Part shown: piece after piece, positions 1 through 20,569 of the stretch
How the letters are laid out: every line of letters starts with the position of its first letter
How positions within the stretch are numbered: the stretch's first letter is position 1
Assembly (NCBI RefSeq): GCF_017051705.1
Contig: NZ_JAFIDJ010000001.1
Span: 2,480,745-2,544,744, forward strand
Direction of reading: 5' to 3'
DNA: 64,000 bases
Source: Algoriphagus lutimaris
GTDB lineage: Bacteria; Bacteroidota; Bacteroidia; Cytophagales; Cyclobacteriaceae
Notes under the pieces: model-generated
The model's input: only the letters and a program-made list of their open reading frames with translations
The model's database searches: none
What the model was told of the DNA's origin: nothing
Position numbers and translations under genes: made by a program

Positions 1-249
1 GATTACCGGGATGAAATGGTTAAATTCCATAGCCCGCTTTTGTATCGGGATTTTTATGAGTTGGACGATCCCGTGGAACTGAGTTATTCTCCAACATACC
101 AGATCGATTGGAAAGGCATCCAGCAGAATGCGTATTTAAAAACTCAAGTGGGGATGATTGTGGCCTATAGACAGCAAATTCGAAAATTCCAGGAAGATCT
201 ACTTCAAAAAGCTCAGAAAGTAGTGGAGTATTTGGATCAAGAAAATTAA
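1..249 (+). CDS. C-terminal end of an unrecognised protein (partial)
   Basis: Frame 1 is open from the first base of the window to the TAA ending at 249, so this is most likely the 3' end of a longer gene; the ATG at 16 is probably internal. The visible 82 residues are soluble and mixed in charge, and end in a Gln/Lys/Glu-rich amphipathic helix (YRQQIRKFQEDLLQKAQKV). I do not recognise the family. It is followed by a terminator-like hairpin and then the CPBP protease gene on the same strand. It may be the leftmost member of the accessory array, but that needs the upstream sequence. Confidence 0.5.
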   Translation, partial: DYRDEMVKFHSPLLYRDFYELDDPVELSYSPTYQIDWKGIQQNAYLKTQVGMIVAYRQQIRKFQEDLLQKAQKVVEYLDQEN

Positions 250-275
250 GGAAAGCGCTTGGAGCAGTATTTGGT

Positions 276-297
276 GATCCTAAAAAGGGATCTTTTT
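276..297 (+). terminator. Possible intrinsic terminator
   Basis: GATCC (276-280) can pair with GGATC (288-292) around an A-rich loop, followed by TTTTT (293-297). It lies 27 bases after the first stop codon. The stem is only 5-6 bp, so the call is tentative. The remaining bases to 404 show nothing else clear. Confidence 0.4.
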
Positions 298-404
298 AGA
301 AAGAAAAACTTGTATACCCTGCGTGACCAAGCAGAATTGATGAAGGGGGGGATGAGTGGTTGCAGGGGATGATTCTATGAGCATCCATCTTTATTATAGC
401 TATC

Positions 405-1115
405 ATGAAACAACTCTCAAAAGCACAATCCATCCTGTATCATTTTTACCCTGGCGTGATCATTACTTTCTTTTTTATCTTGATCACCCCTATCCTATTG
501 GAAAAAGGATTTCCCCCTCAGTTTTCAATGCTCCTCGCCGGCGGCCTTGTGGTGGTCCCTGTTTTTCTGATCCATTTAAGAAGCGCAAAATCAAAGGAGG
601 GCGTTCCACGAATCAGCGACCTAATGGTTTACAAAGAGAAAATACCCACCAAAAAAATGGTGCTGTATACTGCCGGGTTGATCCTATTTGCTTTTTTGAT
701 CTACGGACTCACCCAGCCCCTCAATGTGCTGTTGACCGAAAAACTCTTGTTCTGGCTGCCCGACTGGTATCAGGTGAGAGACTTTGAAGGGTATTCGAAA
801 AAAATAATTCTGATCACCTTGTTGTTAAACCTCCTTCTCAACGGGCTATTGGCTCCCTTTTTTGAGGAGCTGTATTTTAGGGGATATTTATTGCCAAGAA
901 TGGAAACCTGGGGCAAGTATGCTCCGGTGCTGAGTGCTGTTTTATTTTCACTCTATCATTTTTGGCAGCCCCAAATCTATTTGACCTTGATCCTTGCGCT
1001 GCTTCCCATGACCTATTTGGTTTGGAAAACCCAGAGTTTACGATTGGCAATCTATGTTCACTGTGGGCTCAATATCATCGGGACTTTGTTATCCTTAGGA
1101 ATGCTTGGACAGTAG
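405..1115 (+). CDS. CPBP family intramembrane metalloprotease
   Basis: A 236-residue polytopic membrane protein of the CPBP (CaaX protease and bacteriocin-processing, formerly Abi) family. The three family motifs are present: EELYFRG at residues 154-160 (Glu154, Glu155, Arg159), the His of FSLYHF near 185, and HCGLN near 219-223. In the family these residues form the intramembrane active site. About six hydrophobic helices fit the usual topology. Bacterial members often process or confer immunity to peptides, or act as accessory proteases; no substrate gene is visible beside this one. The start at 405 gives a short basic N-terminus ahead of the first helix. It is a single gene followed by the first repeat-rich spacer. 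Confidence 0.85.
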   Translation: MKQLSKAQSILYHFYPGVIITFFFILITPILLEKGFPPQFSMLLAGGLVVVPVFLIHLRSAKSKEGVPRISDLMVYKEKIPTKKMVLYTAGLILFAFLIYGLTQPLNVLLTEKLLFWLPDWYQVRDFEGYSKKIILITLLLNLLLNGLLAPFFEELYFRGYLLPRMETWGKYAPVLSAVLFSLYHFWQPQIYLTLILALLPMTYLVWKTQSLRLAIYVHCGLNIIGTLLSLGMLGQ

Positions 1116-1555
1116 GAAACCACTAGGATTTTTTAATATTTGTCAGCCTTTGGATCTCTTTAGGTACCCCATCTGAGACTTCTCTGTTCCCGAATAATCG
1201 GGACTGGCAGTTCTCCTTCGAAAGGACCAACTTGCAACACAGAAAATCTAGCTTTAGTAGGGAAGTTGAACACCTGCTTCTGGGAGGCAGGCTACCTACT
1301 GAACACTGATCAAAATACCGTTTTCTACAAACCTTCGAGGAGCCCCTCTATCCTTTTTTTATTCGTAAACGGTCCGTCTAAACCTCCACGATTTTAATCC
1401 TTGAATTCCAAAACTTAATACAAGGATCAAGGAGAAAGTCCACGAAATCCTTAACTTAATTTTACCAAACCAAACCACGTGTGAGTCAATTGAATAAAAC
1501 CAGCGGGATCAGAATTGAACTGGAGCAAAGCAAGTGATTTACGACACCAACACCC
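1116..1555 (+). repeat. Spacer 1: repeat blocks, no gene
   Basis: This 440-base noncoding spacer carries a copy of block d, the TTCTCTGTTCCCGAATAATC segment (about 1174-1228), which recurs near 7226, 8741, 11191, 17993 and 20454. It also has a degenerate copy of the CCTTCGAGGAG...GTAAACGG segment (about 1333-1372), related to the strong hairpin at 7096-7165. Near its right end, CAATT (1488-1492) and AATTG can pair, as in a decayed hairpin, but no clear GTT end was found. Confidence 0.6.
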
Positions 1556-2338
1556 ATGATTAATTTCTTTAGAAAAATTCGCTATCGGCTTATGGAGCAT
1601 CAGTTAATCGGGAAGTATATGAAGTATGCGGTCGGGGAAATTATCCTGGTGGTGATCGGTATCCTGATCGCTTTCCAGTTGAATGAATGGAACGATCATC
1701 GCAAACAGGTAAAATTAGAACAGGAATATTATTGCCGGTTACTGGATGATGTCCGGTTGGATGAGAAACAAACACAAATTTTGTTAGAGCAAGCCGAAGA
1801 GCGTCTGGTAGCATCCAATCATGCTGTCCGATTACTCTTGGAAGACAACTCGGAAAAAATTGAAATTGCTTCTCAGATAACGCGCTCCACCAAAGCTGTA
1901 TTCTCTGATTTTAAGCCAAATAATTCGGCTTTTGACGATTTAAAATCTGGAGCTAATCTCAATATCATCAGCGATAAACTCATCATCAAGGCGCTAAACC
2001 GTTATTTCAATAGGTTTGAAGAGCTAAAGAGTATCATCATGGTAAATGGGAAGCATGCGGTAGATATTTTGTTTGCGCATGAGGATTACTTTGCAAATGG
2101 TGCTGTCCAAGCCTCTATTAGAGAGGGGAGATTCAAAGATGGGCTGGATGAAGACTTGAAAGAAGCTATTCTGGTCCTTGACGATGATATTCTTACATCC
2201 CAAATGAGAAGGAGATTACTCAATGAATCCTTAGAGTTTGTAAGCGTGAACACCCGGCAAATCGAACTTTATCAATTGCTACTTCAGGAAACCAACGCCT
2301 TGAAAGTGCAATTAGAAGTAAAATGTGCAGCGCAATAA
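1556..2338 (+). CDS. DUF6090 family membrane protein (paralogue 1)
   Basis: A 260-residue protein of the DUF6090 family, function unknown. The N-terminus is basic (FFRKIRYRL), then a conserved block GKYMKYAVGEII leads into one transmembrane helix ending near residue 45 at QLNEWND. The rest is a soluble, helix-rich, acidic domain. By the positive-inside rule the C-terminal part should lie outside the cytoplasmic membrane (inference). It is the most diverged of five paralogues in the array (others at 4395, 7605, 10216 and 19434) and lacks their shared leader sequence upstream. No enzyme motif is visible. Confidence 0.8.
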   Translation: MINFFRKIRYRLMEHQLIGKYMKYAVGEIILVVIGILIAFQLNEWNDHRKQVKLEQEYYCRLLDDVRLDEKQTQILLEQAEERLVASNHAVRLLLEDNSEKIEIASQITRSTKAVFSDFKPNNSAFDDLKSGANLNIISDKLIIKALNRYFNRFEELKSIIMVNGKHAVDILFAHEDYFANGAVQASIREGRFKDGLDEDLKEAILVLDDDILTSQMRRRLLNESLEFVSVNTRQIELYQLLLQETNALKVQLEVKCAAQ

Positions 2339-2742
2339 AGAAACCCGGTGATGCGATCATTCCGATCCAGGCTACTATAAACCTACCGCTGATAGGTAAG
2401 CTGCTGTTCGGGTTCCAATATCCTTCCTGGATGTAATCTTGAACCTAAATCATAGGATTTTAAATCCGCGTTATTGAAAGATCGGTATTATTCCTCTTAA
2501 ATGATTTAACCAAGAGGTTTACAAGACTTTGGATCCTAATTCAAGATTACAACTGCGATATTTATCAGGTCTCGAATAGCTACGAAAATCAAAATCTATA
2601 ATAACCGATTATAGTCAGTTGTTTTGATCAGTTATAATACTAAATTGATTGTCAAATACTTGAAAAATATACCAGTAGAGGTAGTTGACAACCAATACTG
2701 AAAAATAGCAGGATCTTTTTTAAACTTTTTTCATTTCAACTT
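2339..2742 (+). repeat. Spacer 2: hairpin plus repeat blocks, no gene
   Basis: AACCCG (2342-2347) and CGGGTT (2409-2414) form the ends of a 73-base hairpin-like unit just after the stop codon. It is followed by GGATGTAATCTTGAACC (2429-2445), which recurs at 4060 and 14256. Block b (GATTACAACTGCGATATTTATC, about 2538-2580) follows. The right 150 bases are AT-rich and probably carry the promoter of the next gene; I could not pick out a convincing -7 element. Confidence 0.55.
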
Positions 2743-3984
2743 ATGCAACGATTACTTTATGTTTTGCTGGCGGCATCACTTCTAGCATGCAATGGCAAAA
2801 ACAATGATAAAGCCCAAGAATCGGCTACATCTTCCTCTTCAAATATGGACACAATACATGTTGAGTTGGAAGAAGTAATCGGGGGATTGGAAAATCCTGT
2901 TCAACTAAAAAGCTTACAGGGTTCGGACAGATTATTCATTGTTTTGCAAGGGGGTAAAATCCTTCTTAAGGATAGAAATAGTCCTTCCCAAGAAGTGTTC
3001 TTGGATATTACTGACCGGGTAGATCATCAGCTCCCTGATTTCACAGAATTAGGGTTATTGGGATTGGAGTTTCACCCAAATTTTGAAGAAAACGGCCGAT
3101 TATTCGCATTCTACAGTCATCAAATCAATGATGACAAAAACGGAGTAAACGTTCGAATTTCAGAATTTACGCTTCAAAAAGACGATTCAGGACTTGCTGA
3201 TCCGGATTCGGAGCGAGTACTAATGGAATTGGATTACAGTGGTCTATTCATTATAGGGGGGAATTTATCCTTTGGGCCTGATGGGATGCTCTATATTGGG
3301 GTGGGCACAGGCAAAAGCGATGAAGCAAAATGGAATGCACAAAATTTAACTAATGTATTCGGCTCCATTTTAAGGATTGATGTAGACAAAGGGCAACCCT
3401 ATTCCATACCAGAAGATAATCCTTTTGTAAATGGAAAGGCACCTGAAATTTGGGCTTATGGCTTTAGAAATCCCTATCGATTTGATTTTGACTCTGAAAC
3501 AGGAGCTTTGGTTTGCATAGATGTTGGGGATAGACTCAAAGAAGAGGTGAACATCATTACCAAAGGTGGAAACTACGGTTGGCCTCTATATGAGGGCACC
3601 ATTCTAACTGAAAACCAATCCATTGATTCAATTAATGGAAAACTGATTTTACCTGCGATTGAATACGATCACATTCTGGGATGGGGCGAGGCAATAGTCG
3701 GTTCCTTTCAATATAGAGGGAATAATTTCCCCGTCTTTCAGGACAAAGTTTTGATTTCAGATTGGAGTGGGCAAATGTTTCTTGCCAGCGATTTCGAAAA
3801 TCCGAAGTTAGCTCCCATTGTATCAAACAGCATCAACATGCCCTCACAAGAAGATGTCAATCTAGGGGACAGATATTTTATCAATGGAATGATGGAATCC
3901 GAAGCTGGTGAAATTTATTTAACGGTACAAAAGGGTTTAGGTGATGGAAATGGTTTAGGGTCGATTTTTAGAATTAAGTATTAA
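2743..3984 (+). CDS. PQQ-dependent sugar dehydrogenase-like lipoprotein
   Basis: A 413-residue protein of the glucose/sorbosone dehydrogenase family (soluble GDH-like, six-bladed propeller). Residues 1-16 form a lipoprotein signal with lipobox LLAC (Cys16). Family landmarks follow in order: GLLGLEFHPNFEENGRLF, LSFGPDGMLYIGVGTG, GSILRIDVD, EIWAYGFRNPYRFDFD and GGNYGWPLYEG. The GFRNP and GNYGWP segments are characteristic of the cofactor-binding face. Family members oxidise sugars with PQQ as cofactor, but many bacterial paralogues have unknown substrates. It should be a lipid-anchored periplasmic or surface protein. No PQQ synthesis genes are nearby. It is a single-gene unit in the array. Confidence 0.85.
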   Translation: MQRLLYVLLAASLLACNGKNNDKAQESATSSSSNMDTIHVELEEVIGGLENPVQLKSLQGSDRLFIVLQGGKILLKDRNSPSQEVFLDITDRVDHQLPDFTELGLLGLEFHPNFEENGRLFAFYSHQINDDKNGVNVRISEFTLQKDDSGLADPDSERVLMELDYSGLFIIGGNLSFGPDGMLYIGVGTGKSDEAKWNAQNLTNVFGSILRIDVDKGQPYSIPEDNPFVNGKAPEIWAYGFRNPYRFDFDSETGALVCIDVGDRLKEEVNIITKGGNYGWPLYEGTILTENQSIDSINGKLILPAIEYDHILGWGEAIVGSFQYRGNNFPVFQDKVLISDWSGQMFLASDFENPKLAPIVSNSINMPSQEDVNLGDRYFINGMMESEAGEIYLTVQKGLGDGNGLGSIFRIKY

Positions 3985-4293
3985 CCCATCTCGATTTTAG
4001 GTAAATGGATTCTGAATCTATTAATCAGTTTCCGCTGTTCAGGTCCTGATGGCTATCGTGGATGAAATCCTGAACCTATATCATAGGATTTAAAATCCGA
4101 GTAAATAAGAAAGAGCGTAGTGTTGTCTTTAAGTGTTTTGATCGAGAAGATAAAAACCTTTTGATCATACTTCGGGATTACAACCGCGATATTTATCGGT
4201 TTGAGAAGAGCGGAGTTCAAAAGCCTTATGGTCAAAAACTTTTAAGATCGGATAAAGAAAGAAATCATTGAAATTCTTATTTTAAGTTCAATA
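3985..4293 (+). repeat. Spacer 3: repeat blocks b and f
   Basis: Noncoding. It holds GGATGAAATCCTGAACC (4060-4076), a good copy of block b with CTTCGGGATTACAACCGCG (about 4169-4212), and a shortened copy of block f (GTCAAAAACTTTTAAGATCGG, about 4205-4284). The order is the same as in the other spacers. Confidence 0.6.
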
Positions 4294-4369
4294 CCAACTA
4301 ACCCACTATCATCAAAACAACTAGTTAATCAATAGGATAGTTGTAATCGGGCTTTTTACTAAGTGTTGT
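4294..4369 (+). repeat. attC-like hairpin, GTGTTG type
   Basis: The left end CCAACT (4294-4299) is complementary to the right end AGTGTTG (4362-4368) with one bulged base. Inside, ACTATC (4305-4310) pairs with GATAGT (4336-4341). The AAC and GTT triplets sit where R'' and R' would be in an attC site. It lies 25 bases before the start of a DUF6090 gene. Confidence 0.4.
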
Positions 4370-4394
4370 GCTTCATTTTACCAACCAATAATCA

Positions 4395-5126
4395 ATGATA
4401 AAATTCTTCAGGAAAATTAGGCAAAACTTGCTGGAAAAGGGTCAGACTGGAAAGTACCTAAAATATGCGCTTGGGGAGATCGTACTTGTTGTTATTGGAA
4501 TCTTAATAGCACTTCAGATCAACAATGCGAATGAAAGCTTAAAGCAAAAACGCAAAGCTAAAAACTACGAAAAGACTTTAATTACTGAACTTAACGCTGA
4601 TTTGATGAGGATCAATCAGTTAGATACCTTATGTCAGAAAATGCAAAAAGACATCAATGATTACCTCTCCTATTTCAAAAATCCGGATAAGGAATATAAT
4701 GTAGTCATTCAAGAAATGGAAAAGGTGAACTATTACGGTGATTTCTACCAAAGTATTGCCTATACCATCGATGATATTATTAATACGGGCAACCTAGAGC
4801 TATTTAACAAAGAGATCAAAAATGCCATTTTAGAATATAAAGCCACGCAGGATTTTTATGAAAAAAACAGAGATGAAGTGGTACAAAAATATGTTTTGAG
4901 TGATCTTGAATTTGAAAATGCGGTAGATATACTTTCATTTAGCGATCTCCCATCTGATAAATCTAAAAACCTGAATGACTGGCTATTTGATTTCAAATCA
5001 GAACAATACAAATTGTTCAATAATCGAGCGCTTTCTATTTTACGGACTTACTATTTCCGGTCCGACCAAAACAATAAAATGAGACTTAGCATTGAAAACC
5101 TGCTAACAGAATTGGAAAAAGATTAA
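4395..5126 (+). CDS. DUF6090 family membrane protein (paralogue 2)
   Basis: 243 residues. It starts MIKFFRKIRQNLLEKGQTGKY and has one transmembrane helix (about residues 25-45, EIVLVVIGILIALQI), followed by NNANES instead of the usual NNWNE. The remaining 195 residues are helical and rich in Lys, Glu and Asp. Function is unknown. The start is supported by the shared leader GTTGTGCTTCATTTTACC at 4365 onward, also found before paralogues 3, 4 and 5. A small lipoprotein gene follows after 144 bases. Confidence 0.8.
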   Translation: MIKFFRKIRQNLLEKGQTGKYLKYALGEIVLVVIGILIALQINNANESLKQKRKAKNYEKTLITELNADLMRINQLDTLCQKMQKDINDYLSYFKNPDKEYNVVIQEMEKVNYYGDFYQSIAYTIDDIINTGNLELFNKEIKNAILEYKATQDFYEKNRDEVVQKYVLSDLEFENAVDILSFSDLPSDKSKNLNDWLFDFKSEQYKLFNNRALSILRTYYFRSDQNNKMRLSIENLLTELEKD

Positions 5127-5141
5127 ATAATGAAGCCATAA

Positions 5142-5186
5142 CAACCCTTAAAATGAATGTTCTTACAGAATATTTTGAAAGTGTTG
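5142..5186 (+). repeat. Short attC-like hairpin (weak)
   Basis: CAACcCTT (5142-5149) can pair with AAaGTGTTG (5178-5186), giving AAC and GTT ends about 40 bases apart, 16 bases after the DUF6090 stop codon. The middle is AT-rich and folds poorly, so this is a tentative member of the hairpin family. Confidence 0.3.
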
Positions 5187-5270
5187 CTGCAAAATTGATT
5201 TTATAAAGGAATAGCAGATGGGACATAACCTAATCTCAGTTAGACCTTGCAATTTGTAACTAAAACAGCT

Positions 5271-5606
5271 ATGAAGAGTAAATTAATTTTATTTTCCCTC
5301 CTCTTATTAGTTTCATGTTCCAGTAAAAAAATCGAGGCAGAATTTATTGAAATTGAGAATAACAATGCTCGATTTGAAATTGTGAATAACAGTGAGGAAG
5401 ATATTGGCAAAATCACATTTGAAATAAGATACTTAGACAGTTCAGATGGCATATTACTTTTAGACACGGTATCCTATCAAATGAGTAATGAGGGTCAAAA
5501 TGAGCCCCTTCCATTTTTAAAAGCGAATGATAGAACCTTTATCGTTCAACGTGCACCTGATCAATGCAATAAGGCAGAAATAATGGTATTGGAAATTGGT
5601 CATTGA
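5271..5606 (+). CDS. Small lipoprotein, unknown function
   Basis: 111 residues. MKSKLILFSLLLLVSCSS is a clear lipoprotein signal with Cys16 in the lipobox, which decides the start at 5271 over the in-frame ATG at 5247. The mature part is a short beta-rich domain (AEFIEIENNNARFEIVNNS), reminiscent of the small immunoglobulin-like FxLyD folds. That likeness is only an impression. No catalytic motif is seen. The gene sits between weak hairpin 5142-5186 and spacer 5, so it may be its own cassette. Confidence 0.65.
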   Translation: MKSKLILFSLLLLVSCSSKKIEAEFIEIENNNARFEIVNNSEEDIGKITFEIRYLDSSDGILLLDTVSYQMSNEGQNEPLPFLKANDRTFIVQRAPDQCNKAEIMVLEIGH

Positions 5607-5842
5607 GAAGCAGATAATACATATAAACTAGCTTCAATACGATAGAATGACCCTTGCGGTGAAACTCCCAAATTGACCACTGACCACTGACCACTGACCA
5701 CTGAAAACTAATTCAGGATACTACAAACCTAGCAATAGCTCTTTTTCATTCATTATGTGGAAGTTATAAACCTGGTGATCAAAATCTTTAGGGAATTGTA
5801 AAGATGGAATCCAATGAAATCCATAATTTGGGTGAAACAGCG
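5607..5842 (+). repeat. Spacer 5: heptamer repeats and block f
   Basis: Four tandem TGACCAC units (5674-5701) run into a copy of block f (about 5704-5830: AACTAATTCAGGATACTAC, then TGATCAAAATCTTTAGGG). There are no open frames of note. Confidence 0.7.
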
Positions 5843-5908
5843 ACACCCATATGGACATTGCAGATATATTCGCAATGGAATATTGTAGTTACGTATATAC
5901 ATGTGTTG
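5843..5908 (+). repeat. attC-like hairpin, GTGTTG type
   Basis: ACAC (5843-5846) pairs with GTGT (5903-5906), whose last T starts the GTTGG-like end. The perfect inner stem is CATTGC (5856-5861) / GCAATG (5872-5877). It lies 16 bases before the next gene start. Confidence 0.4.
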
Positions 5909-5923
5909 GAAAAATAGACAAAT

Positions 5924-7045
5924 ATGAAAATTAAGCTTTTGCTCATAACTGGAATTTGCATGCTCGCAATAGCATGCCAGAATCAAAAAGATGAATCACA
6001 GGCAGGTTCTGAAAGTGAGAATTCGGAAAATCAATTTGACTTACCTGATAGTTTGTCAACCAGAAGAATTTCTTTCGTTCTAAACCTGAAAAAATCTGTT
6101 GCTGAAAGGAATTGGCCTGAGTTTGGGGAAAAGAATAATGAAGGAACTTTAATTTACTTCGATGCAGATCGGTCTGAAGTGTTCTTCCCAGATTCACATG
6201 TAAATAAGAAATTGCACAACCCCAAAAAACACAGTGATAATTATTGGCTAACAGGAAGGATAGACAGCATTCCTTATCACATGGAGGTAATGATCAGTTT
6301 CAATGAAGAAGATTCTTTAGAGTTCTTTTTTAAAAACCCTGTAGAACAATATTCTTCTGTGGAGGAAATAGGGAAATACATCCCTTCCGTTGAAAGTACA
6401 GAAATGTGGTCAACTATGGTTATTCATGAAATGTTTCATCACTTTCAATACAACAATGAGAACTACTTGGAGTATGCTGAATCCGATATTGGAATTTTAC
6501 CTTTTGACATTAGAAACTTGGTGGCATTATGTCAGGAAGACAAGCAATTTCTAGCTATGATTCAGGATGAAAATAATATTCTAATGAAAGCCATTTCTGA
6601 GGATAGTAAAGATAATCGCGATTCTTTAATTACATCCTACTTGGACCAAAGGAAAAAGCGGATCACTAAATACGGTTCAGAACATCCCCATCTAGAACAG
6701 GTAGAAAACTATTATGTCATTCAAGAAGGATCGGCTAGGTACATTGAGTATTACAGCATGTTTTCCCTTAATAATTACTTCAATAATTCTGATGCTCCAA
6801 TAATCCATAACGATCCAAAGTTTATTTCTTATTCAGAATTTGAAGAAATTGATTTGGAAAATCATGCTTTTAATTATTTAGTCTATGCTGGTCCAACGGA
6901 CTATCATTATACGATTGGCTTTAACATCATGCGCCTTTTGGATGAATTGAAAATTGAGTACAAGAAATATCTGCTTAATAATCCAGAAAAAGGATTACAC
7001 CAATATTTAGAGGATTATATAACTACTTTGCCAAACAAAAGCTAA
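5924..7045 (+). CDS. Lipoprotein with HExxH metalloprotease motif
   Basis: 373 residues. The N-terminus is a lipoprotein signal (ITGICMLAIAC, Cys18). A zinc-protease motif HEMFHH lies at residues 168-173 (His168, Glu169, His172). About 95 residues further on, QEGSARYIEYY (Glu268) matches the third-ligand helix of gluzincin-type enzymes (E-G-x-A-x-Y). The region between is helical. This pattern supports a secreted or lipid-anchored zinc peptidase, but I do not recognise a named family and the fold outside the motifs is uncertain. It is a single-gene unit between two repeat spacers. Confidence 0.65.
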   Translation: MKIKLLLITGICMLAIACQNQKDESQAGSESENSENQFDLPDSLSTRRISFVLNLKKSVAERNWPEFGEKNNEGTLIYFDADRSEVFFPDSHVNKKLHNPKKHSDNYWLTGRIDSIPYHMEVMISFNEEDSLEFFFKNPVEQYSSVEEIGKYIPSVESTEMWSTMVIHEMFHHFQYNNENYLEYAESDIGILPFDIRNLVALCQEDKQFLAMIQDENNILMKAISEDSKDNRDSLITSYLDQRKKRITKYGSEHPHLEQVENYYVIQEGSARYIEYYSMFSLNNYFNNSDAPIIHNDPKFISYSEFEEIDLENHAFNYLVYAGPTDYHYTIGFNIMRLLDELKIEYKKYLLNNPEKGLHQYLEDYITTLPNKS

Positions 7046-7515: not shown

Positions 7516-7577
7516 ACTTGTGGATAATTGTGATATATACGCAATAGATTTTTGGAGTTGTGTATATACAAGTGTTG
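7516..7577 (+). repeat. attC-like hairpin, GTGTTG type
   Basis: ACTTGT (7516-7521) pairs with ACAAGT (7568-7573), directly followed by GTTG (7574-7577). A GATAATTGTGATATATACGC core is shared almost unchanged with the elements at 10129, 16934 and 18258. It lies 28 bases before a DUF6090 gene. Confidence 0.45.
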
Positions 7578-7604
7578 TGCTTCATTATGACCAACCAATA
7601 ACCA

Positions 7605-12428: not shown

Positions 12429-12442
12429 CAAACTTTGCAAAA

Positions 12443-14185: not shown

Positions 14186-14524
14186 GAGACTGATTGTTAC
14201 TATTAAAAATGGCAATTATTTGATTTTATGATGTTCAAGTAATTATTGCCATTTTGGATGCAATCCTGAACCCAAATCATAGGATTTAAATCTGTATTTT
14301 AAAAGCCCAGTATTTTTTCATCTTAAATGATTTAACCAAGAAGTTTACCAGCCTTTTGATCATTCTTTGAGATTACAACCGCGATAATTATCAGACCTAG
14401 AAGTGGGGAGTGATCACTGCAAACTGACCACTGAAAACTAATTAAGGATACTATAAGCCTTATGATCAAAGACTTTTGGGATAGGGTAGAGATGGAAGTC
14501 ATTGAAATCCTTATTTTAGAATAA
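14186..14524 (+). repeat. Spacer 11: inverted repeat plus blocks b, e, f
   Basis: A perfect 11-bp inverted repeat (14206-14255) is followed by GGATGCAATCCTGAACC (14256-14272), block b (about 14363-14410), one TGATCAC and one TGACCAC unit, and block f (about 14433-14520). No gene is present. Confidence 0.6.
14206..14255 (+). repeat. Perfect 11-bp inverted repeat after the pentapeptide gene
   Basis: AAAATGGCAAT (14206-14216) and ATTGCCATTTT (14245-14255) are exact complements around a 28-base AT-rich loop, 20 bases after the stop codon. It occupies the place where 8499 and 10944 carry the short attC-like site, so it may be that cassette's recombination hairpin or a terminator. Confidence 0.55.
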
Positions 14525-14605
14525 ACAACAAGTAATTCACTCTGAACCAATTGAATAGTTATGAAATAGGCTAGCCCAACCCAGGCTTTTACAAGTAATA
14601 GCAGT
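14525..14605 (+). repeat. attC-like element, CACTCTGAACC type, decayed
   Basis: AACAAC near 14525 is followed by TTCACTCTGAACCAATTGAA and a GCTTTTACAAG right arm, parallel to 12348-12428 but without a clean GTT end (TAATAGCAG instead). It is possibly an inactive copy. The TolB-like gene begins about 40 bases downstream. Confidence 0.3.
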
Positions 14606-14645
14606 ACTGATAAATTTTATCCCTGTCATTTTAAAATTCGACGAT

Positions 14646-15773
14646 ATGTCCACAATAAAAAAAGCTTTTCCATTCCGAAATTTTCTCCTTTCATGCATTT
14701 TACTACAGAGCATTAATGCGTTTGGTCAAGGCCAGGAAAAAACAGAACCCCAGTTAATTAATGCCAGTCCAACAGATAATTTACCTCCCTATATAAAACT
14801 TGTAAGCGGCTTTGGAGAACGTCCGGATTGGTCTCATGATGGCCGGTTCATTTTGTTTTTAGACAAACCAATGGGCGAAGTATATGAAATGGAATTAGCA
14901 ACTGGAATAATCCGTCCAAAAACCAGACATTTCAATCATTACGGTTTTACCAGAGCCATGTATTTATCAAATGGGGACATTCTACTTTCAGGTCCCAATG
15001 CACCATTTGACCCTACCAACATTGAAGAAAGGGATAAAGCGCGTGACTTAACCTGGTTGTATGTCATGGATAAAAATGGAAATACACCCCCGGTTTCATT
15101 AAACACACTCTGTGCTGAAGGTCCAGCTGTTTCCAGAAATAGGATGAGAATAGCCTGGACTCACCGGGACCGGCAATTACCTGAGCTAGGAAAAAACAGG
15201 GCAAAGCTATTAATGGCCGAAATAATTTATCAGGATGGAATTCCTAAGCTAGCCAACGAAAGGGAGATTTTTGATTCAAAACAATTACCCTTTTCACTGG
15301 GTCATGCAAGTCTTGAAACACAAAGCCTTGTCCCTCCCGAAGATGTAAAAGTAACTTTCGCTGTTTATACCATTGATAATGGGAATAATACGGATGTTTA
15401 TATGGTTGACAGCGAAACCGGAGAATACAGGACGATCACTAATTCCCCTTGCTGCTACGATGAGCCCGAAGGAATATTCCCTGATGGGTTACACACCTTA
15501 GTCGAACACGGGAATTCTGAGAAAAATGCCTGGCCTTTGCTAGATCTGTATAAATTGAAATTAGATGGTTCAGGGGCAATGCAAAGATTAACGCATTTCA
15601 CTGACTACAAGGGATACAAGGCCAATCAAGGAGTAATTTCAGACGATGGAAGATATTTATGTTTTCAGATAGGAAAAGATAATACAGAACCTGGCGTAGG
15701 CTTTGGTTTTCTAATCATGGATTTGGAAGAAGCTTCAAAACACCTGGAAGATTTTAAAACATATGATAAATAA
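14646..15773 (+). CDS. Secreted TolB-like WD40/PD40 propeller protein
   Basis: 375 residues. An N-terminal signal (FLLSCILLQSINAFGQ) is followed by a beta-propeller-type sequence with PD40-like motifs: RPDWSHDGRFILFLDK, GPAVSRNRMRIAWTHRD, NTDVYMVDSETGEYRTIT, GYKANQGVISDDGRYLCFQIG. These resemble TolB C-terminal repeats, where S-x-D-G/N turns mark each blade. A CC pair occurs in NSPCCYDEPEGIFPDG. The family usually serves protein or ligand binding, or carries peptidase domains; no peptidase domain is present here. It is likely periplasmic. It is a single-gene unit of the array. Confidence 0.75.
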   Translation: MSTIKKAFPFRNFLLSCILLQSINAFGQGQEKTEPQLINASPTDNLPPYIKLVSGFGERPDWSHDGRFILFLDKPMGEVYEMELATGIIRPKTRHFNHYGFTRAMYLSNGDILLSGPNAPFDPTNIEERDKARDLTWLYVMDKNGNTPPVSLNTLCAEGPAVSRNRMRIAWTHRDRQLPELGKNRAKLLMAEIIYQDGIPKLANEREIFDSKQLPFSLGHASLETQSLVPPEDVKVTFAVYTIDNGNNTDVYMVDSETGEYRTITNSPCCYDEPEGIFPDGLHTLVEHGNSEKNAWPLLDLYKLKLDGSGAMQRLTHFTDYKGYKANQGVISDDGRYLCFQIGKDNTEPGVGFGFLIMDLEEASKHLEDFKTYDK

Positions 15774-16041
15774 TAGAACTACAGCTACCAGTGTATTTAA
15801 GTACATGCAGGTTCGGGGCTATATTGAAATATGAAAACTTAATTCAAAGGGCAGCATTCACTGATAAGTTGAGGAGTTAAAACCCAGGATTACATATAAA
15901 AGAACCCTCCTTTAAAAACTTTCAGTAGCTCCTTTCTTTAGATCTATTTCATAGACGAAAAGGAGATTTTAAATCTTGTGATCAAAAACCTTTTGGAATA
16001 GGATAGAGATGAAACCCGCCGAAATCCCTATTTTGTTTACC
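15774..16041 (+). repeat. Spacer 12: block f, no gene
   Basis: The first 130 bases show nothing I recognise. Then come AGAACCCTCCTTTAAAAAC, a remote relative of the 7096 hairpin, and block f (about 15950-16034, GTGATCAAAAACCTTTTGG). Confidence 0.5.
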
Positions 16042-16122
16042 ACAACACTGAATTAATACTTATAAAAACCTTGCGGAAATTTACCAAAAGGGTATAGATT
16101 ATTGAGTTTAAACAAGTGTTGT
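16042..16122 (+). repeat. attC-like hairpin, GTGTTG type
   Basis: ACAACACT (16042-16049) and AGTGTTGT (16115-16122) are perfect 8-bp complements with AAC and GTT placed symmetrically. The TGAATTAATAC left arm and GTATAGATTATTGAG right arm match those of 9012-9088. Confidence 0.5.
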
Positions 16123-16209
16123 ACTTATCACGGGGCAAGTCATTTTTAGCGAGAAAATCAGGAAAACCAATACGTTAATATAATTTAATAATCAACTAAC
16201 TATAAAATC

Positions 16210-16617
16210 ATGACCATTGAACAAAACATTGAAATTATTGAATCATTATACAACGCTTTCTCAACTGGTGATATGCCAACCGTATTGGGGCTAATGCATC
16301 CTGATATCGAATGGAATGAGGCCGAAAGTAATTCCCTTGCCGAAGGAAACCCATACATTGGGCCAGATGCAATTTTAGAAGGCGTATTTACTAACCTTGG
16401 AAATAAACATGAATACTTTGGATTACAGGATATAAAAATCCATGGCATGAATAATAATATGATCCTAGCTACTCTACGGTACGATGCTAAAGTAAAATCT
16501 ACAGGTAAGGCTTATAATGCACAGGCTGCACATTTATGGACCCTTAATGATGAAGGAAAAATTATTGCCTTTCAACAATATGTAGACACCAAGAAATTGG
16601 CGGATTCAGAAGTATAG
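16210..16617 (+). CDS. NTF2-like / SnoaL-like domain protein
   Basis: 135 residues forming a single NTF2-like alpha+beta barrel: IEIIESLYNAFSTGDMPTVLGLMHPDIEWNE is the characteristic opening helix pair and strand, followed by GPDAILEGVF and strands ILATLRYDAK and AQAAHLWTLNDEGKIIAFQQYVDT. SnoaL-like proteins bind small hydrophobic ligands or act as isomerases or hydratases; the ligand cannot be predicted here. It is cytosolic, with no signal peptide. NTF2-like proteins are common cargo in integron cassettes (general knowledge), which fits the context. A leader of 88 bases separates it from the upstream hairpin. Confidence 0.85.
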   Translation: MTIEQNIEIIESLYNAFSTGDMPTVLGLMHPDIEWNEAESNSLAEGNPYIGPDAILEGVFTNLGNKHEYFGLQDIKIHGMNNNMILATLRYDAKVKSTGKAYNAQAAHLWTLNDEGKIIAFQQYVDTKKLADSEV

Positions 16618-16652
16618 GATTGATTAAGGCTACTGCCTAGAAATTTTATATT

Positions 16653-16784
16653 AACAATAGCTCAATATTGTATAACCGTAATTATTTCGGGTTCGACTAT
16701 GTCCGAATCCACATGGAGTTGCTATGGTCTGTGCCTGACAGATAAGCCGTATCTTAAAACCCGTAACTGACGGTTACACAATCC
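16653..16784 (+). repeat. Long attC-like hairpin, VCR-sized, right end altered
   Basis: GTATAACCG (16670-16678) pairs with CGGTTACAC (16771-16779) with one mismatch. The inner GGGTTCGACTATGTCCGAATCC and the CCCGTAACTGACGGTTA right arm are shared with 19281-19410. Left AAC is at 16653-16655. After ...ATCCG, where the sister copy continues TTAGGC, this copy continues CCCTAA, so the GTT end is lost exactly at the expected crossover point. Confidence 0.45.
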
Positions 16785-16933
16785 GCCCTAAAAAATCCTT
16801 CGAGCCCCCAGCACCCCTTTATTTATCGAGGGCTAAAAAGGAGATCATCAGCCTTGTGATCAAAAAAATTAAGGGTAGGAAAAAGATAGAAGTCACTGAA
16901 ATCCTTAATTTTATACGAAGCACTGCTCCTATC
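16785..16933 (+). repeat. Spacer 13: hairpin remnant and block f
   Basis: It holds a relative of the 7096 hairpin (CCTTCGAGCCCCCAGCACC, about 16795-16840) and block f (about 16850-16914). No gene is present. Confidence 0.5.
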
Positions 16934-16988
16934 TTGTGGATAATTGTGATATAAACGCAATTGATTTTTGGAGTTTCTTATACAAGTG
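16934..16988 (+). repeat. attC-like hairpin, GTGTTG type, right end altered
   Basis: CTTGT (16934-16938) pairs with ACAAG (16982-16986). The GATAATTGTGATATAAACGC core matches 7516 and 10129. The right end reads GTGCTACC instead of GTGTTG, so the GTT triplet is missing. Confidence 0.4.
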
Positions 16989-17010
16989 CTACCTATCACC
17001 AATCTTAACT

Positions 17011-17730
17011 ATGAAAAAAATCCTTCTTGCATTTATCTTTTTTACCTGTTGCTATTCATCAAAACTTTCTGCTCAAAATGGAATAGATTCCACGTTATTA
17101 AAAGAATTAGAGCGAATGTTTGAAATTGATCAGTTAGCAGCATCTAAGTCCAGAAGCTCTTCGAGTTTATCGACTACTGAGTGGGCTGACAGTGTTTACC
17201 AGGCTCATCAAATATTTCTTGAAAATACTCTTAATAAGTTTGGCTATCCTGGTTATGACAAGTTGGGTAAAAGAGGCTCTAATCTTTATTGGGTGATGGT
17301 TCAACATTCTGATTTTGATACAAATTTTCAGAAACGAGTTCTCGATTCGTTGTATCAAGAAGTACAGATTAACAATGCTGACCCTGTTAACTATGCCTAT
17401 TTATTGGATAGAATTAAGATGAACTTGGGTGAAAAGTTGGTTTATGGCACGCAAGTAACTTATCATTGGTTTACAGGAAAAGCTCGCATTAGGCCTACAA
17501 TTGACCCTGAAAATCTAAATAGTAGAAGAGCTGAGATTGGTCTAGAACCAATTGAAGTATATCTGGAAGAAATGAACGAGGTAAATAATTTACAGGGCAA
17601 CTCAATTATAGGCGGAATAACAAATTTGGGGTTATTGTTGATAATCACCTTAATAGTAATATCAACTTTAGTTGTACTCTTACTTTTTAAAAGGAAAAGA
17701 GCAATAGATAAAAAACCTAAACTGAATTAA
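17011..17730 (+). CDS. DUF6624 domain protein with C-terminal membrane anchor
   Basis: 239 residues from the ATG at 17011, where MKKILLAFIFFTCCYSSKLSAQ is a clear signal peptide; an upstream in-frame GTG at 16936 lies inside the hairpin element. The middle part matches DUF6624 by its landmarks: LERMFEIDQLAASK, NKFGYPGYDKLGKRGSNLYWVMVQHSDFD, FQKRVLDSLY, AYLLDRIKMNLG and YGTQV. Residues about 205-230 form a transmembrane helix followed by KRKRAIDKK, so the domain should be periplasmic and anchored at its C-terminus. Function of DUF6624 is unknown. The last codons and stop lie inside a perfect 8-bp inverted repeat (17717-17742). Confidence 0.75.
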   Translation: MKKILLAFIFFTCCYSSKLSAQNGIDSTLLKELERMFEIDQLAASKSRSSSSLSTTEWADSVYQAHQIFLENTLNKFGYPGYDKLGKRGSNLYWVMVQHSDFDTNFQKRVLDSLYQEVQINNADPVNYAYLLDRIKMNLGEKLVYGTQVTYHWFTGKARIRPTIDPENLNSRRAEIGLEPIEVYLEEMNEVNNLQGNSIIGGITNLGLLLIITLIVISTLVVLLLFKRKRAIDKKPKLN

Positions 17731-17742
17731 TACGCAGTTTAG
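17717..17742 (+). repeat. Inverted repeat spanning a stop codon
   Basis: CTAAACTG (17717-17724) and CAGTTTAG (17735-17742) are perfect complements, and the TAA stop (17728-17730) sits in the loop. It is followed by CCAAACCG and then block a, with the same AAACCG junction as at 20278-20284. Confidence 0.55.
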
Positions 17743-17750
17743 CCAAACCG

Positions 17751-18257
17751 CTGTATCCAATTTGAATAGATTTAATCAGGAAAGTTATATTCTTTTTGAT
17801 CATACTTTGGGGTTACATCCGCTATCAGATCCCGAAGAGCGGTTAATTGGTCTTTGATATTTTGAAAGAGATTTCTCAGTTGTTCCTCCTTCGAAATGAC
17901 CTTTCTACTACTCTGCATGATGATCACAGATCATTGCCCCTAATTACTGCAACTGCCTACTTGTTTCAGATTCAGCTATTATGAATTGCCAAAGAGATTT
18001 ATCAGTTCACGAATAATCGGGATCGGCAGTTCCTTCTTCGAAATTACCTGATCACTATTCTGCAAGCTGATCACTGATCACTGACCACTGACCACTGACC
18101 ACTGACCACTGAAAACTAATTCAGTATCCTGCAAACCTTTCAAAAGTTATTTTTCATCAATTGGAAGGAGATTATAAATCTTGTGCTCAAAAACTTTTGG
18201 GATAGGGTAGAGATGAAAGTCACTGAAAACCTTAATTTTATAACAAGGACTCCACCT
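17751..18257 (+). repeat. Full-length noncoding module, copy 3
   Basis: It starts CTGTATCCAATTTGAATAG (17751-17769). It then has block b (about 17801-17843), two block d copies (short at about 17868-17901, full at about 17993-18048), block e as two TGATCAC plus four TGACCAC units (18068-18109), and block f (about 18113-18240). It is closed by the hairpin 18258-18318. Block c is missing and block d is duplicated. Confidence 0.65.
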
Positions 18258-18318
18258 ACTTGTGGATAATTGCGATTTATACGCAATAGATTTTTGGAGC
18301 AGCGTATGTACAAGTGTT
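18258..18318 (+). repeat. attC-like hairpin, GTGTTG type
   Basis: ACTTGT (18258-18263)/ACAAGT (18310-18315), then GTT (18316-18318). The perfect inner stem is ATTGCG (18269-18274)/CGCAAT (18282-18287), a compensated variant of the ATTGTG/CACAAT stem at 10139-10157. The next gene starts 20 bases on. Confidence 0.5.
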
Positions 18319-18337
18319 TCCACACATTTAAAAAAAG

Positions 18338-19267
18338 ATGATGACAAGAAAAGTATACTTCACAATATTTGTTTTGATTGTGTCCTGTAATTTGACTTTT
18401 GGACAATGGCCAATGTCAAACGACCCTGAATTTAACTCTGAAGTAAAAGAGCCAACTTATAAAAAGGGGAAAGGACCAAAAATACTCTTAGATGGTGCTC
18501 ACCATAACTTTTTTATTCAATGGGATTTTATAAAACCTTTCTCTGACCTGGCAAAAGCTGATGGATACCAAACAATAGTAGATAGTTCAAAATTTACACC
18601 TGAATATTTAAAACGCTTTGACGTTGTAATGATTATTACGTCTCTTCCATTCAACTTCACCACTAAAAATCAGGTAACAGATGAATCTACGTTCTCTAAA
18701 GACGAGATAAATAGCTTGTATGATTGGGTTAACAACGGTGGTTCACTTTTAGTTTTTAGTGAACATGCACCATTTGACCAAGCAATCAACCCACTTCTAA
18801 ATCAGTTTGGAATTGAGTCGAGTATTGGAACAACAATTGACAGTTTGAACTATAACAAAGAAATTGGAAGAACAGGATGGATAGAATTTACCAAGGATAA
18901 TGGACTTCTAAATATTGAACATCCAATAGTTAAAGGGAGAACACCGTCGAATCAAGTTAATCGCTTGCTGACATTTGGAGGTAGTGGACTTAATGGAAAG
19001 AATTATACCAACCTGTTAAGGTTGTCTGAATCATCAGAAAACGTAGTTCATAGTACAGGAGTTGGGCCAATTGGAAAAGGTAATTCACAGGCTTTGGCAG
19101 GAAATGTCGGTAAAGGAAAAGTAGTTGCTCTTGGAGATTCGAACGGATTTACAGCAATGGTTTTTGACCAAAATGATGGAACAAAACAAAAAGCTGGTAT
19201 GAATTTAGAAAATTACGATTGGAAACAATTTGTATTGAATACTTTATACTGGCTATCAACTGAATAA
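18338..19267 (+). CDS. Secreted DUF4350-like protein
   Basis: 309 residues with a signal peptide (VYFTIFVLIVSCNLTFGQ). The body resembles the DUF4350 / glutamine-amidotransferase-like (GIFT) fold: ILLDGAHHNFF near the start, FDVVMIITSLPFN, EINSLYDWVNNGGSLLVFSEHAPFD, and GKVVALGDSNGFTA near the end. This arrangement is seen in bacterial proteins that bind sugars or lie in gliding and transport operons, but no catalytic Cys is obvious. It is likely periplasmic. A second ATG at 18341 would only drop one residue. It is followed 13 bases later by the cleanest long attC-like site, so gene plus site make a complete cassette. Confidence 0.65.
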   Translation: MMTRKVYFTIFVLIVSCNLTFGQWPMSNDPEFNSEVKEPTYKKGKGPKILLDGAHHNFFIQWDFIKPFSDLAKADGYQTIVDSSKFTPEYLKRFDVVMIITSLPFNFTTKNQVTDESTFSKDEINSLYDWVNNGGSLLVFSEHAPFDQAINPLLNQFGIESSIGTTIDSLNYNKEIGRTGWIEFTKDNGLLNIEHPIVKGRTPSNQVNRLLTFGGSGLNGKNYTNLLRLSESSENVVHSTGVGPIGKGNSQALAGNVGKGKVVALGDSNGFTAMVFDQNDGTKQKAGMNLENYDWKQFVLNTLYWLSTE

Positions 19268-19280
19268 AAAAAACGTGTGG

Positions 19281-19410
19281 TAACAATGTATAACCGCAAT
19301 TACGGTGGATTCGACTACGTCCGAATCCACTAGGAATTGCTAAAGTCAGTGCCATACCGAAAATTACCGCATATTAACCCGTAACTGACAGTTATACGAG
19401 ACCGTTAGGC
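19281..19410 (+). repeat. Long attC-like hairpin, 130 bases (best long example)
   Basis: Four nested perfect stems: TAAC (19281-19284)/GTTA (19404-19407), GTATAAC (19288-19294)/GTTATAC (19391-19397), GCAATT (19296-19301)/AATTGC (19335-19340) and GTGGATTCG (19305-19313)/CGAATCCAC (19322-19330). The right end GTTAGGC (19404-19410) fits the attC R' consensus GTTRRRY. Length and layout resemble the long Vibrio-type attC repeats. A DUF6090 gene starts 23 bases after it, with no noncoding module between. Confidence 0.65.
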
Positions 19411-19433
19411 TTCATTATGACCTACCTTTAGCA

Positions 19434-20153
19434 ATGATAAAATTGTTTAGAAATATTCGTCAAAATTTGCTTTCCGAGGGAAAAACTGGAAAGTATATGA
19501 AATACGCCATTGGAGAAATTATTTTGGTAGTTATTGGTATTTTGATTGCATTAGCGATAAACAATTGGAATGAGGCAAGAAAAAATAGGGTTAAAGAAAA
19601 AGACATTCTTTTTGAAATTGCAGAAACCCTAGAAGTTAATGCAAAAACACTCGATTCTAGTATTTTTTGGGGAAATAGATTTATTAAAGAGCGGCAAAAC
19701 TATCTTAAATCAGTTAGGGAGAAAAAACCTTATAATGACACAATGCAACAAGGTTTTCAACGTATGAATTTGGGATTTTCTCGTACAGCTCTTTCAAAAT
19801 CTGGATATGAAATGCTAAAGATTAGTGGATTTGATTTATTACAATCAAAGTCCTTAAAAAAAGAAATACTTAATTTATTTGAAGTTACTTATCCTAATTT
19901 AGAACTCAGAGAAAATGATAATCGCCTAAATATTATACTAGAAAATGTCCAATTATACTATTGGCAAAATTTCATGGATACAGACAGTGGCAAATTTCCT
20001 ATTAATTATGAGCAGCTTTTAAATGATAACTACTTTTATGAACTGATAAATGCTTATCTGGAAAGGGAGACTTTATTACGTAATTGGAAAACGGAAACCT
20101 TCGATGAAAATAACCGAGTTCTACAATTAATTAATGATGAATTAAAAAATTAA
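19434..20153 (+). CDS. DUF6090 family membrane protein (paralogue 5)
   Basis: 239 residues: MIKLFRNIRQNLLSEGKTGKYMKYAIGEII, one helix (VVIGILIALAI), NNWNEARKNR at residues 46-55, and a helical C-terminal domain ending RVLQLINDELKN. Function is unknown. The leader is GTTAGGCTTCATTATGACC, the same as before paralogues 3 and 4 apart from the first bases, which here come from a different attC-like end. This is the last gene of the accessory array; the next gene is core and on the other strand. Confidence 0.8.
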   Translation: MIKLFRNIRQNLLSEGKTGKYMKYAIGEIILVVIGILIALAINNWNEARKNRVKEKDILFEIAETLEVNAKTLDSSIFWGNRFIKERQNYLKSVREKKPYNDTMQQGFQRMNLGFSRTALSKSGYEMLKISGFDLLQSKSLKKEILNLFEVTYPNLELRENDNRLNIILENVQLYYWQNFMDTDSGKFPINYEQLLNDNYFYELINAYLERETLLRNWKTETFDENNRVLQLINDELKN

Positions 20154-20569
20154 CGAAAGCACAATACCGGCTATAATTCATTGCTTCTGACTTTCCTCGC
20201 TGAAAGTCCTTGCAAATTTGCTATCCTCAGTTTACGGTTGAAAATCCTTGCGGATTTTATCGCAGCGAAACCCTTGCCAAACCGCTGTATCCAATTTGAA
20301 TAGATTTAATCAGGAAAGTTATATTCTTTTCATACTTTGGAATTACAACCGCGATATTTATGGGGTCCCCAAAAGCGGGAAGTCTACATAAAAACCCTCC
20401 GAAATCTTCACGACTCCGGAGGTTTATATCTTTCAGCTATTGCGTATTACCTAAGAGATTTCTCAGTCCCCGATAATCGAGACTTGTAGTACCTCCTTCG
20501 AAATGGCCTGACTACTACGCAGCTTGCTGATCACTGAGACTGCCCACAGCGATTATCTAATTCAAATAA
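20154..20569 (+). repeat. Terminal spacer: hairpin remnants and truncated noncoding module
   Basis: It has two perfect small inverted repeats: GACTTTC/GAAAGTC (about 20190-20211) and AAAATCC/GGATTTT (about 20244-20261). Then AAACCG and block a (CTGTATCCAATTTGAATAG, 20284-20302), b (about 20331-20380), c (CCCTCCG...CCGGAGG, about 20391-20425) and d (about 20454-20508) follow. Blocks e and f and the closing hairpin are missing except for a TGATCACTGA scrap near 20528. This looks like the decayed right end of the array. Confidence 0.6.

Follow-up and report, generated by a model that had tools for sequence, protein, structure and literature searches.

We examined a window of 64,000 nt, the whole stretch of DNA analyzed here, from Algoriphagus lutimaris (assembly GCF_017051705.1, contig NZ_JAFIDJ010000001.1, positions 2,480,745 to 2,544,744, forward strand). 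The first 20,569 nt of the window hold 17 genes, all on the plus strand and including a first one cut by the window edge, with attC-like sites between several of them; we call this run the window array. A preliminary description, made from the letters of the DNA, had read it as about sixteen unrelated units on one strand, with an abrupt switch of strand and gene type at ettA. The single plus-strand run and the switch at ettA, which lies on the minus strand, were both recovered. The genes are not all unrelated, as five carry DUF6090 and the cut first gene looks like a sixth. Handles are used below for genomes (G), contigs (C) and loci (L): G000 is this genome, C1 is the contig of the window, L018 is the integrase locus of this genome, L021 is the stretch upstream of the window, and other L and G numbers stand for other loci and genomes.

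We looked for attC-like sites with covariance models built here. The seeds of model R1 were 10 of 11 sites from a plus-strand pattern searched over whole loci (one was dropped for a wrong start, and the reverse-strand control gave 2 matches). Model R2 was trained on 53 sites, and model R3 was made from 14 short sites, namely short matches and two window sites, one of them found by eye. Run on positions 1 to 20600, a check that the preliminary description had proposed, R2 or R3 supported six sites (E < 0.01), all on the plus strand. The proposed hairpin family thus stood in both its short form (69 to 71 nt) and its long form (112 to 136 nt), and its number fell from at least a dozen to six. Both AAC and GTT are kept at only three of the six (at 8494, 10940 and 19277). 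The long intact site at 19277-19412 is 87% identical over 119 aligned columns to a site of the integron locus (L018:19440-19558), and the bottom strand of the site at 10940-11010 folds with a z of -5.9. A further attC-like site lies about 1.9 kb upstream of base 1, at L021:18005-18133, so the array continues beyond the window start. With six sites in 1-20600, one upstream and no integrase, all scored as attC-like sites of this system by R2 or R3, the window array has the makeup of a cluster of attC sites lacking an integrase (CALIN), that is, at least two attC and no integrase. In the rest of the window (20600-64000), R2 gave two chance-level matches (E 4.5 and 5.6) and R3 gave none at E ≤ 1. 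A simple scan for mirror hairpins with AAC and GTT found 3 on the plus strand of the array (mean of shuffles, 1.4) and 5 in the control part (2.8); because this is no clear excess over chance, the attC claim is based on the covariance models. Support also fell for a classical attC at the end of every window spacer: the hairpins adjoining gene starts were unmatched by unfiltered R2 at E ≤ 10, the closest match (11366-11444, E 4.9) lay just ahead of such a hairpin, and the only one folded (11447-11520) did no better than shuffles.

The window holds no integrase, as the preliminary description had stated. The Phage_integrase matches of the genome lie on C8 and at C1:1.66-1.67 Mb, the nearest one on the contig of the window being 811 kb off. 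Searched over the whole genome, the integron-integrase model TIGR02249 found no gene above its cut-off and one strong match in two pieces (C1:1669203-1670027). This match falls in a tyrosine recombinase of 453 aa (C1:1668675-1670036, or L018:8675-10036), 811 kb upstream of the window on the same contig, which is our candidate integrase and scores 219.8 bits against a cut-off of 265. The curated Xer equivalog cut-offs were not reached either (XerD, 172 of 329.6 bits; XerC, 161 of 335; XerA, 211 of 220), and other members of the family may exceed that of XerA (best E 1.8e-73). The best solved relatives by sequence are IntI4 and XerA, with IntI4 aligning in two pieces (16-188 and 246-320). The R-K-H-R-H-Y active site is in place: all 36 aligned relatives have R304, K329, K332, H398, R401 and H424, and 35 of the 36 have Y433. 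The spacing from K to H is 64 to 69 residues in 35 of the 36 aligned members (one unmeasured) and in 3 further ones, versus 106 in 11 of 12 canonical IntI (one unmeasured); the IntI-specific insert is therefore absent. In a tree of 54 rows, unrooted apart from four XerC/D-like rows (two of them from this genome), 39 members of the integrase family formed one group (98/94), 11 IntI formed another (100/99; the IntI locus L180, of 12, was left out), and the four Xer stood apart (100/98). Because its branches are long, the deep order of the tree is unsure and joins may be false. From these features, the enzyme is a predicted recombinase close to IntI but not IntI by definition. The expectation that this would be an integron or an attC cluster, with the integrase located elsewhere or of another type, is thus supported, and the proposed genome search for a tyrosine recombinase with the IntI-specific domain yielded none over the IntI cut-off and this one close relative without the insert.

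N-terminal repeats are visible by eye in many members of the integrase family. HARP was matched weakly by two of the four segments tried (E 0.0027 and 0.04, under the Pfam cut-off), and open frames of about 280, 350 to 390, 455 and 540 to 570 aa suggest, by their length, none to three such repeats. Upstream of the intact integrase, L018:4489-4976 repeats the integrase 3' end and flanking sequence in decayed form (compared with 8457-10074) and is followed by a similar site ending in GTT and by a CPBP gene. Right after the integrase and before the first R2 site, L018:10212-17960 holds a type I restriction-modification-like gene set that exceeds the usual one-gene cassette. Relatives of the integrase also occur in records titled Xenococcus, Adonisia, Spirochaetales, Neomarinimicrobiota and Desulfurellales (L071, L076, L064, L080 and L099); R2 found no site in these five, three of which have little downstream DNA.

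Next to the integrases we found a candidate attI. Relatives of the integrase numbered 226, and the best 80 of them served as named loci. In 17 of the 18 named loci printed, and in L018, a stretch ending in GTT lies directly 3' of the integrase stop codon and is followed by species-specific sequence (L034 is the one of the 18 from which it is absent, and L030 was aligned at a wrong GTT in the printed comparison). Judged by sequence only, this is an attI-like site beside the integrase. Between Cognataquiflexum nitidum and C. rubidum (L031 and L033), the 100 nt up to and including the GTT are identical, the next 12 nt are 83% identical and the following 85 nt are 35% identical. The edges of homologous blocks were compared with 141 sites (attI among them) that had a GTT close to the expected position; the blocks holding the integrase stopped on the GTT or at most 3 nt past it in five locus pairs (L024/L025, L041/L042, L041/L061, L035/L036 and L023/L024).

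Across the 80 integrase loci and one plasmid, R2 gave 135 matches (E ≤ 0.1), every one on the integrase strand and downstream of it, and 0 sites in 676 kb upstream of the integrases, with 370 kb searched downstream. Outside the training set lay 89 of the 135; because the other 46 are training sites within loci counted again here, the 135 of 135 is only partly independent. An R2 site was present in 33 of the 43 integrase loci with at least 2 kb of downstream DNA, and the 32 matches of R3 in these 81 sources were likewise all on the plus strand and downstream. Cassette arrays in one orientation and mostly with one gene each are seen in L083, with 13 R2 sites among mostly single genes, and in L096, with 12 sites. 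This genome has further attC-like sites at C8:659203-680849 and C30:143120-143258, so it probably holds at least one more cassette cluster.

Classical integrons have R boxes and a G^TT cut; the boxes span 7 positions, and attC ends read RYYYAAC and GTTRRRY. The sites found here are likewise imperfect palindromes with AAC and GTT ends, and their arms covary. The R boxes pair over about 4 positions, fewer than the classical 7, and AAC and GTT show little variation and are paired in 132 to 133 of the 135 sites, in an alignment fitted to the model and with seeds picked for AAC and GTT. Over the 135 sites, the covariation score was 0.683 versus 0.161 for shuffled alignments (reached by 0 of 500) and at most 0.099 for slid ones. 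Standard pairs filled 86.9% of pair cells versus 56.9% when shuffled, 878 versus 301 cells had changed on both sides, and 17 of 18 inner pairs showed both-side changes. Mismatches in the arms on the top strand were A-C 225 times (G-T on the bottom strand) versus G-T 38 times, with 118 of the A-C from one position, so that the bottom strand pairs better; this pattern fits, without proving, use of the bottom strand of attC. We considered whether the hairpins are transcription terminators or REP-like repeats between genes, since they lie just after genes, several of them fold, and some spacers hold a separate terminator-like stem. This explanation is scarcely credible in view of arms that covary over 135 sites, a constant strand and side with respect to one integrase family, and a position at the edges of mobile cassettes, including tet(X) (below). 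Neither terminators nor transposon ends, both raised in the preliminary description, would be expected to covary over 135 sequences and bracket whole cassettes.

We then turned to 296 genomes of the same phylum, Bacteroidota, a sample that included G000 and was otherwise fresh as far as known. The integrase family was counted at E ≤ 1e-60, R2 sites at E ≤ 1e-4 and IntI over its curated cut-off. The family matched in 98 of the 296 genomes and was counted in 94, because four (G160, G223, G259 and G317) match only through canonical IntI; R2 sites occurred in 150. Integrase and sites were found together in 84 genomes, integrase only in 10, sites only in 66 and neither in 136 (odds ratio 17.3). The proximity count used 107 integrase rows (the weakest 13 of the 120 listed were left out, four of those being canonical IntI) and the best 150 sites, with at most 11 candidates scored per genome. 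Of these best 150 sites, 51 lay within 20 kb of an integrase versus about 1.4 expected for 4 Mb genomes and uniform placement. The layout was restricted as well: 38 of the 51 were on the same strand downstream, 13 on the opposite strand upstream and 0 in either of the remaining arrangements. Both layouts known from integrons are therefore represented. The 13 divergent sites go with short integrases (match of 810 to 861 nt, open frames of 280 to 335 aa). Short integrases divergent from arrays, which is the classical integron layout, were seen in G075, G083, G091, G211, G218 and G231.

The same survey bears on whether the window array, as a CALIN, received its cassettes from an ordinary IntI integron that has since been lost, the XerA/IntI-like recombinase on the contig being unrelated to it. 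In line with this view, 85 of the 296 genomes have a canonical IntI over the cut-off, so that it is common elsewhere in the phylum; this genome has none over the cut-off. The 73 genomes of the window's class or closer include 54 with R2 sites, 42 with the integrase and a single one with IntI, which is without an R2 site. Across the whole sample, IntI and R2 sites were found together in 37 genomes, IntI only in 48, sites only in 113 and neither in 98 (odds ratio 0.67), and although 23 of the best 150 sites lie in IntI-bearing genomes, 0 lie within 20 kb of an IntI. We regard a lost IntI integron as very unlikely.

Cassettes were also traced across genomes. A 277-aa cassette gene of Algoriphagus chordae (L027) has two copies in a Flavobacteriales chromosome (L096) at 86% DNA identity; the alignment with one copy begins at the G of GTT in both loci, that with the other copy 11 to 12 nt earlier, and the next GTT is 36 and 106 nt beyond their ends. 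One cassette gene is present in duplicate in L083, and one in L096. Upstream of tet(X3) on an Acinetobacter plasmid lies a recombinase fragment with 69% identity to residues 211-453 of the integrase, followed by an attI-like repeat ending in GTT. Plasmid records with this stretch numbered 65, of which 50 have most of it. Among 30 of these records, 7 are without the integrase part, and there the shared part starts on the G of GTT in 6 and 8 nt before it in one (Bacteroides fragilis). In six plasmids with tet(X), the 18 nt from the GTT on are identical in 6 of 6, and the preceding 40 nt are 20 to 47% alike in 14 of 15 pairs and 93% in one pair. R2 sites flank tet(X) on both sides in four of these six (L196 to L199), on the left only in L200 and not in L135; R3 found no site on the six. 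The position of tet(X) would fit a first cassette. R2 sites also lie behind aadS and estT (L199:741-875 and L200:2249-2386), and further resistance genes may therefore be cassettes of this type. Taken together, these comparisons show that the integrase, the attI-like site and the attC-like sites co-occur in fixed layouts and that the same putative cassette stands behind different neighbors; we infer that the recombinase works like an integron integrase.

Besides the attC-like sites, the spacers of the window array have a second feature, a long composite repeat, and the preliminary description had merged these array-specific repeats with the attC hairpins. BLAST of one spacer against the genome placed the composite spacer at 12 places including itself, all within the window array. 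It consists of a block around GATCAAAAACTTTTGGGATAGGATAAAGATGGAAGTCA, tandem TGACCAC units and terminator-like stems, and the conserved block lies about 100 to 200 nt ahead of genes. The last DUF6090 gene, right behind the GTT of an intact attC-like site, has the same 5' leader as three DUF6090 genes that follow the GTGTT of the spacer, and the 3' end of the spacer therefore looks like a cassette edge. The DNA adjoining ettA differs among 12 genomes of the same genus. A phosphoesterase gene lies within 20 kb of ettA in 6 of the 12, about 0.7 to 17 kb away (about 27 kb in G000); in 3 the next flank gene was seen and the phosphoesterase gene was not, and in 3 neither was seen. The ettA-adjacent stretches of the 12 held two R2 sites, both in G015, and no R3 site. 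In this comparison of relatives, which the preliminary description had suggested, gene content between the same flanking genes varies, which shows the ettA-adjacent region to be a variable hotspot. G018 shares the DUF6090_b, small lipoprotein, pentapeptide and esterase genes at 89 to 95% amino acid identity, with the order of the last two reversed.

From these lines of evidence we conclude, with a probability of roughly 90%, that the genome carries an integron-like cassette system, that the window array is a second, partly decayed cassette cluster of the same kind without an integrase of its own, and that the recombinase would act without the IntI-specific insert. The recombinase at L018:8675-10036 is followed by an attI-like site and then by a series of cassettes with attC-like hairpins at their ends, and the window array lies between the phosphoesterase gene and ettA. 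The enzyme would cut at G^TT in attI and in folded attC and so insert and shuffle cassettes. The folded substrate might be the bottom strand of attC, and the window array might have been seeded by the integrase 811 kb away.

Several observations weigh against this conclusion. Three of the six window sites are decayed, without intact R boxes. Some blocks holding the integrase stop before the GTT or run 24 to 54 nt past it (L023/L027, L031/L033 and L042/L061), and of 65 homologous blocks, many of which are chromosomal flank, only 7 ends and 2 starts are 25 nt or less from the GTT of a site (1.7% expected by chance for each end). No R2 site was found in 10 of the 43 integrase loci with at least 2 kb downstream, including both cyanobacterial loci. 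Two of five covariation measures were no better than shuffles (pairs with two-sided changes, 18 versus 18.3; further pair types, 57 versus 62.1). In the survey, 66 of the 150 genomes with R2 sites are without the integrase family at the threshold used, and 53 of the 142 genomes with neither the integrase family nor IntI have R2 sites. Adding the 9 weak non-IntI rows brought in 3 more sites, from G233, near weak relatives on the opposite strand and downstream; the same 3 sites lie 26 to 39 kb down the array side of the strong G233 integrase. Lastly, the esterase and pentapeptide blocks that have another order in G018 do not end at GTT: they start within the repeated spacer block and stop behind the stop codon.

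Because their edges are away from GTT, homologous recombination may have moved these two blocks, and it could be that the present order in the window comes mainly from such recombination between repeated spacers, after the integrase had delivered the cassettes long ago. The 12 conserved spacer blocks within 17 kb, the block edges just described and the decay of half of the window sites favor this account, and the cassette-like 3' edge of the spacer argues against it; we hold it as a tentative explanation with somewhat less than even odds. The three decayed sites and the rearranged blocks off GTT lead us to read the window array as cassettes of this system, partly worn, that may now be shuffled by homologous recombination.

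The genes, sites and repeats of the window array are given in Table 1. Rfam at gathering thresholds found tmRNA only over the window. The right end of the window (63142-63873, minus strand) holds a long Ala-Pro-Ser repeat frame.

Table 1. Features of the window array and its right edge (positions in the window)
Feature	Position	Strand	Remarks
DUF6090-like gene, 3' part	16-249	+	Starts upstream of the window at L021:19460; family by likeness only
CPBP/Rce1-like protease gene	405-1115	+	Pfam PF02517, E 1.2e-18
Array-specific spacer repeats (12), 200-240 nt each, ahead of genes	1325-18338	+	Conserved block and weak hairpin; alignment of 12 spacers
DUF6090 gene	1556-2338	+	PF19578
Glucose/sorbosone dehydrogenase-like gene	2743-3984	+	PF07995
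DUF6090 gene (DUF6090_b)	4395-5126	+	PF19578; common to G018, 93% aa
Small lipoprotein-like gene	5271-5606	+	ORF (open reading frame) 5247-5606, ATG 5271 chosen as start; no Pfam family; common to G018, 92% aa over 72/111
373-aa gene	5924-7045	+	ORF; no Pfam family
DUF6090 gene	7605-8438	+	PF19578
attC-like site, short, AAC and GTT intact, after DUF6090 gene 7605-8438	8494-8562	+	R3 38.4 bits, E 3.5e-5; found by eye; one of the 14 R3 seeds
Esterase gene	9109-9918	+	PF00756; common to G018 (95% aa), other order
DUF6090 gene	10216-10932	+	PF19578
attC-like site, short, AAC and GTT intact, after DUF6090 gene 10216-10932	10940-11010	+	R2 35.2 bits, E 4.9e-6 (outside R2 training); R3 39.5 bits (R3 seed)
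187-aa hydrophobic protein gene	11590-12153	+	ORF; no Pfam family
Pentapeptide-repeat gene	12425-14185	+	PF00805; common to G018 (89% aa), other order
375-aa gene	14646-15773	+	ORF; no Pfam family
Partial attC-like site, inner part only, after 375-aa gene	15810-15884	+	R2 23.4 bits, E 0.0036, model positions 29-103; outside training
SnoaL/NTF2-like gene	16210-16617	+	PF12680
attC-like site, long, decayed (outer R boxes unmatched), after SnoaL gene	16670-16781	+	R2 30.5 bits, E 6.9e-5, model positions 12-122; R2 training site
DUF6624 gene	17011-17730	+	PF20329; ORF 16936-17730, ATG 17011 chosen as start
Decayed attC-like site, overlaps DUF6624 3' end	17705-17758	+	CCGCTG replacing CCGTTG; R3 31.5 bits, E 0.001; no seed
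DUF4350-like gene	18338-19267	+	Sub-threshold PF14258/PF09960 matches
attC-like site, long, intact, between DUF4350-like and last DUF6090 genes	19277-19412	+	R2 86 bits, E 2.4e-18; R1 and R2 training site
Last DUF6090 gene	19434-20153	+	PF19578; directly after attC GTT at 19404
ettA	20599-22278	-	Right edge of array

On a wider scale, we lean toward a reading in which true integron-style recombination on folded attC is carried out, without the IntI domain, by a sister lineage of IntI that perhaps reads the hairpin through HARP-like N-terminal repeats. Folded-site recombination would then be older than the domain or have evolved twice, the system would be the native cassette system of Bacteroidota, and it would have been a route for tet(X) to Acinetobacter plasmids. 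Escudero et al., in the part that treats it, set out the paradox of attC and the domain, and an integrase lineage with covarying attC-like arrays and no IntI domain makes their question testable. The section of the IntegronFinder 2 paper on this phylum (PMC9024848) names one complete integron in Bacteroidetes proper, that of Salinibacter ruber, besides Chlorobi and Ignavibacteriae, and this single case compares with the class-or-closer counts given above for R2 sites and the integrase. Surveys built on IntI and classical attC models may overlook these arrays. We found no description of this system in the literature searched; bioRxiv and most subscription journals lay outside the coverage, so an earlier report is possible.

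The system resembles a chromosomal integron in having a tyrosine recombinase beside an attI-like site, mostly one-gene cassettes in one direction, breaks at GTT, and attC-like sites with YAAC...GTTR ends, two paired arms and a variable center. It differs from one in that the recombinase is without the IntI-specific insert and forms a separate group, many members of which have N-terminal repeats that are weakly HARP-like. In most loci here the integrase is codirectional with the array, as in the reverse-orientation integrons of Spirochaetota, whose typical IntIs are described so in the relevant section of PMC9668308. The window array is like a CALIN as presented in part of PMC9024848, with several attC-like sites and the nearest Phage_integrase match on the contig 811 kb away; it is unlike one in that the matching integrase is not IntI and the spacers have extra array-specific repeats. 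Smyshlyaev et al. 2021 (PMC8138268), in the passages on the integron-like subgroup of tyrosine recombinases, describe the IntI insertion as incompletely conserved, so that members without it had been seen, and call it essential for integron function; the term attC is absent from the text. By comparison, the insert-less recombinase here is linked to attC-like sites. In the part of PMC7473080 that deals with it, a xerD adjoins tet(X) and its role in tet(X) movement is left open. The recombinase fragment there resembles the integrase here, tet(X) would fit a first cassette, and the attI-like repeat with flanking attC-like sites offers a concrete reading of that neighborhood. In Riemerella, according to the sections of PMC13148043 concerned, aph(3')-IVb with a 140-bp 3' flank that folds like attC inserts without homology; the paper names no recombinase, the words recombinase and integrase being absent. 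The system described here is a candidate for this homology-independent gene uptake in Riemerella.

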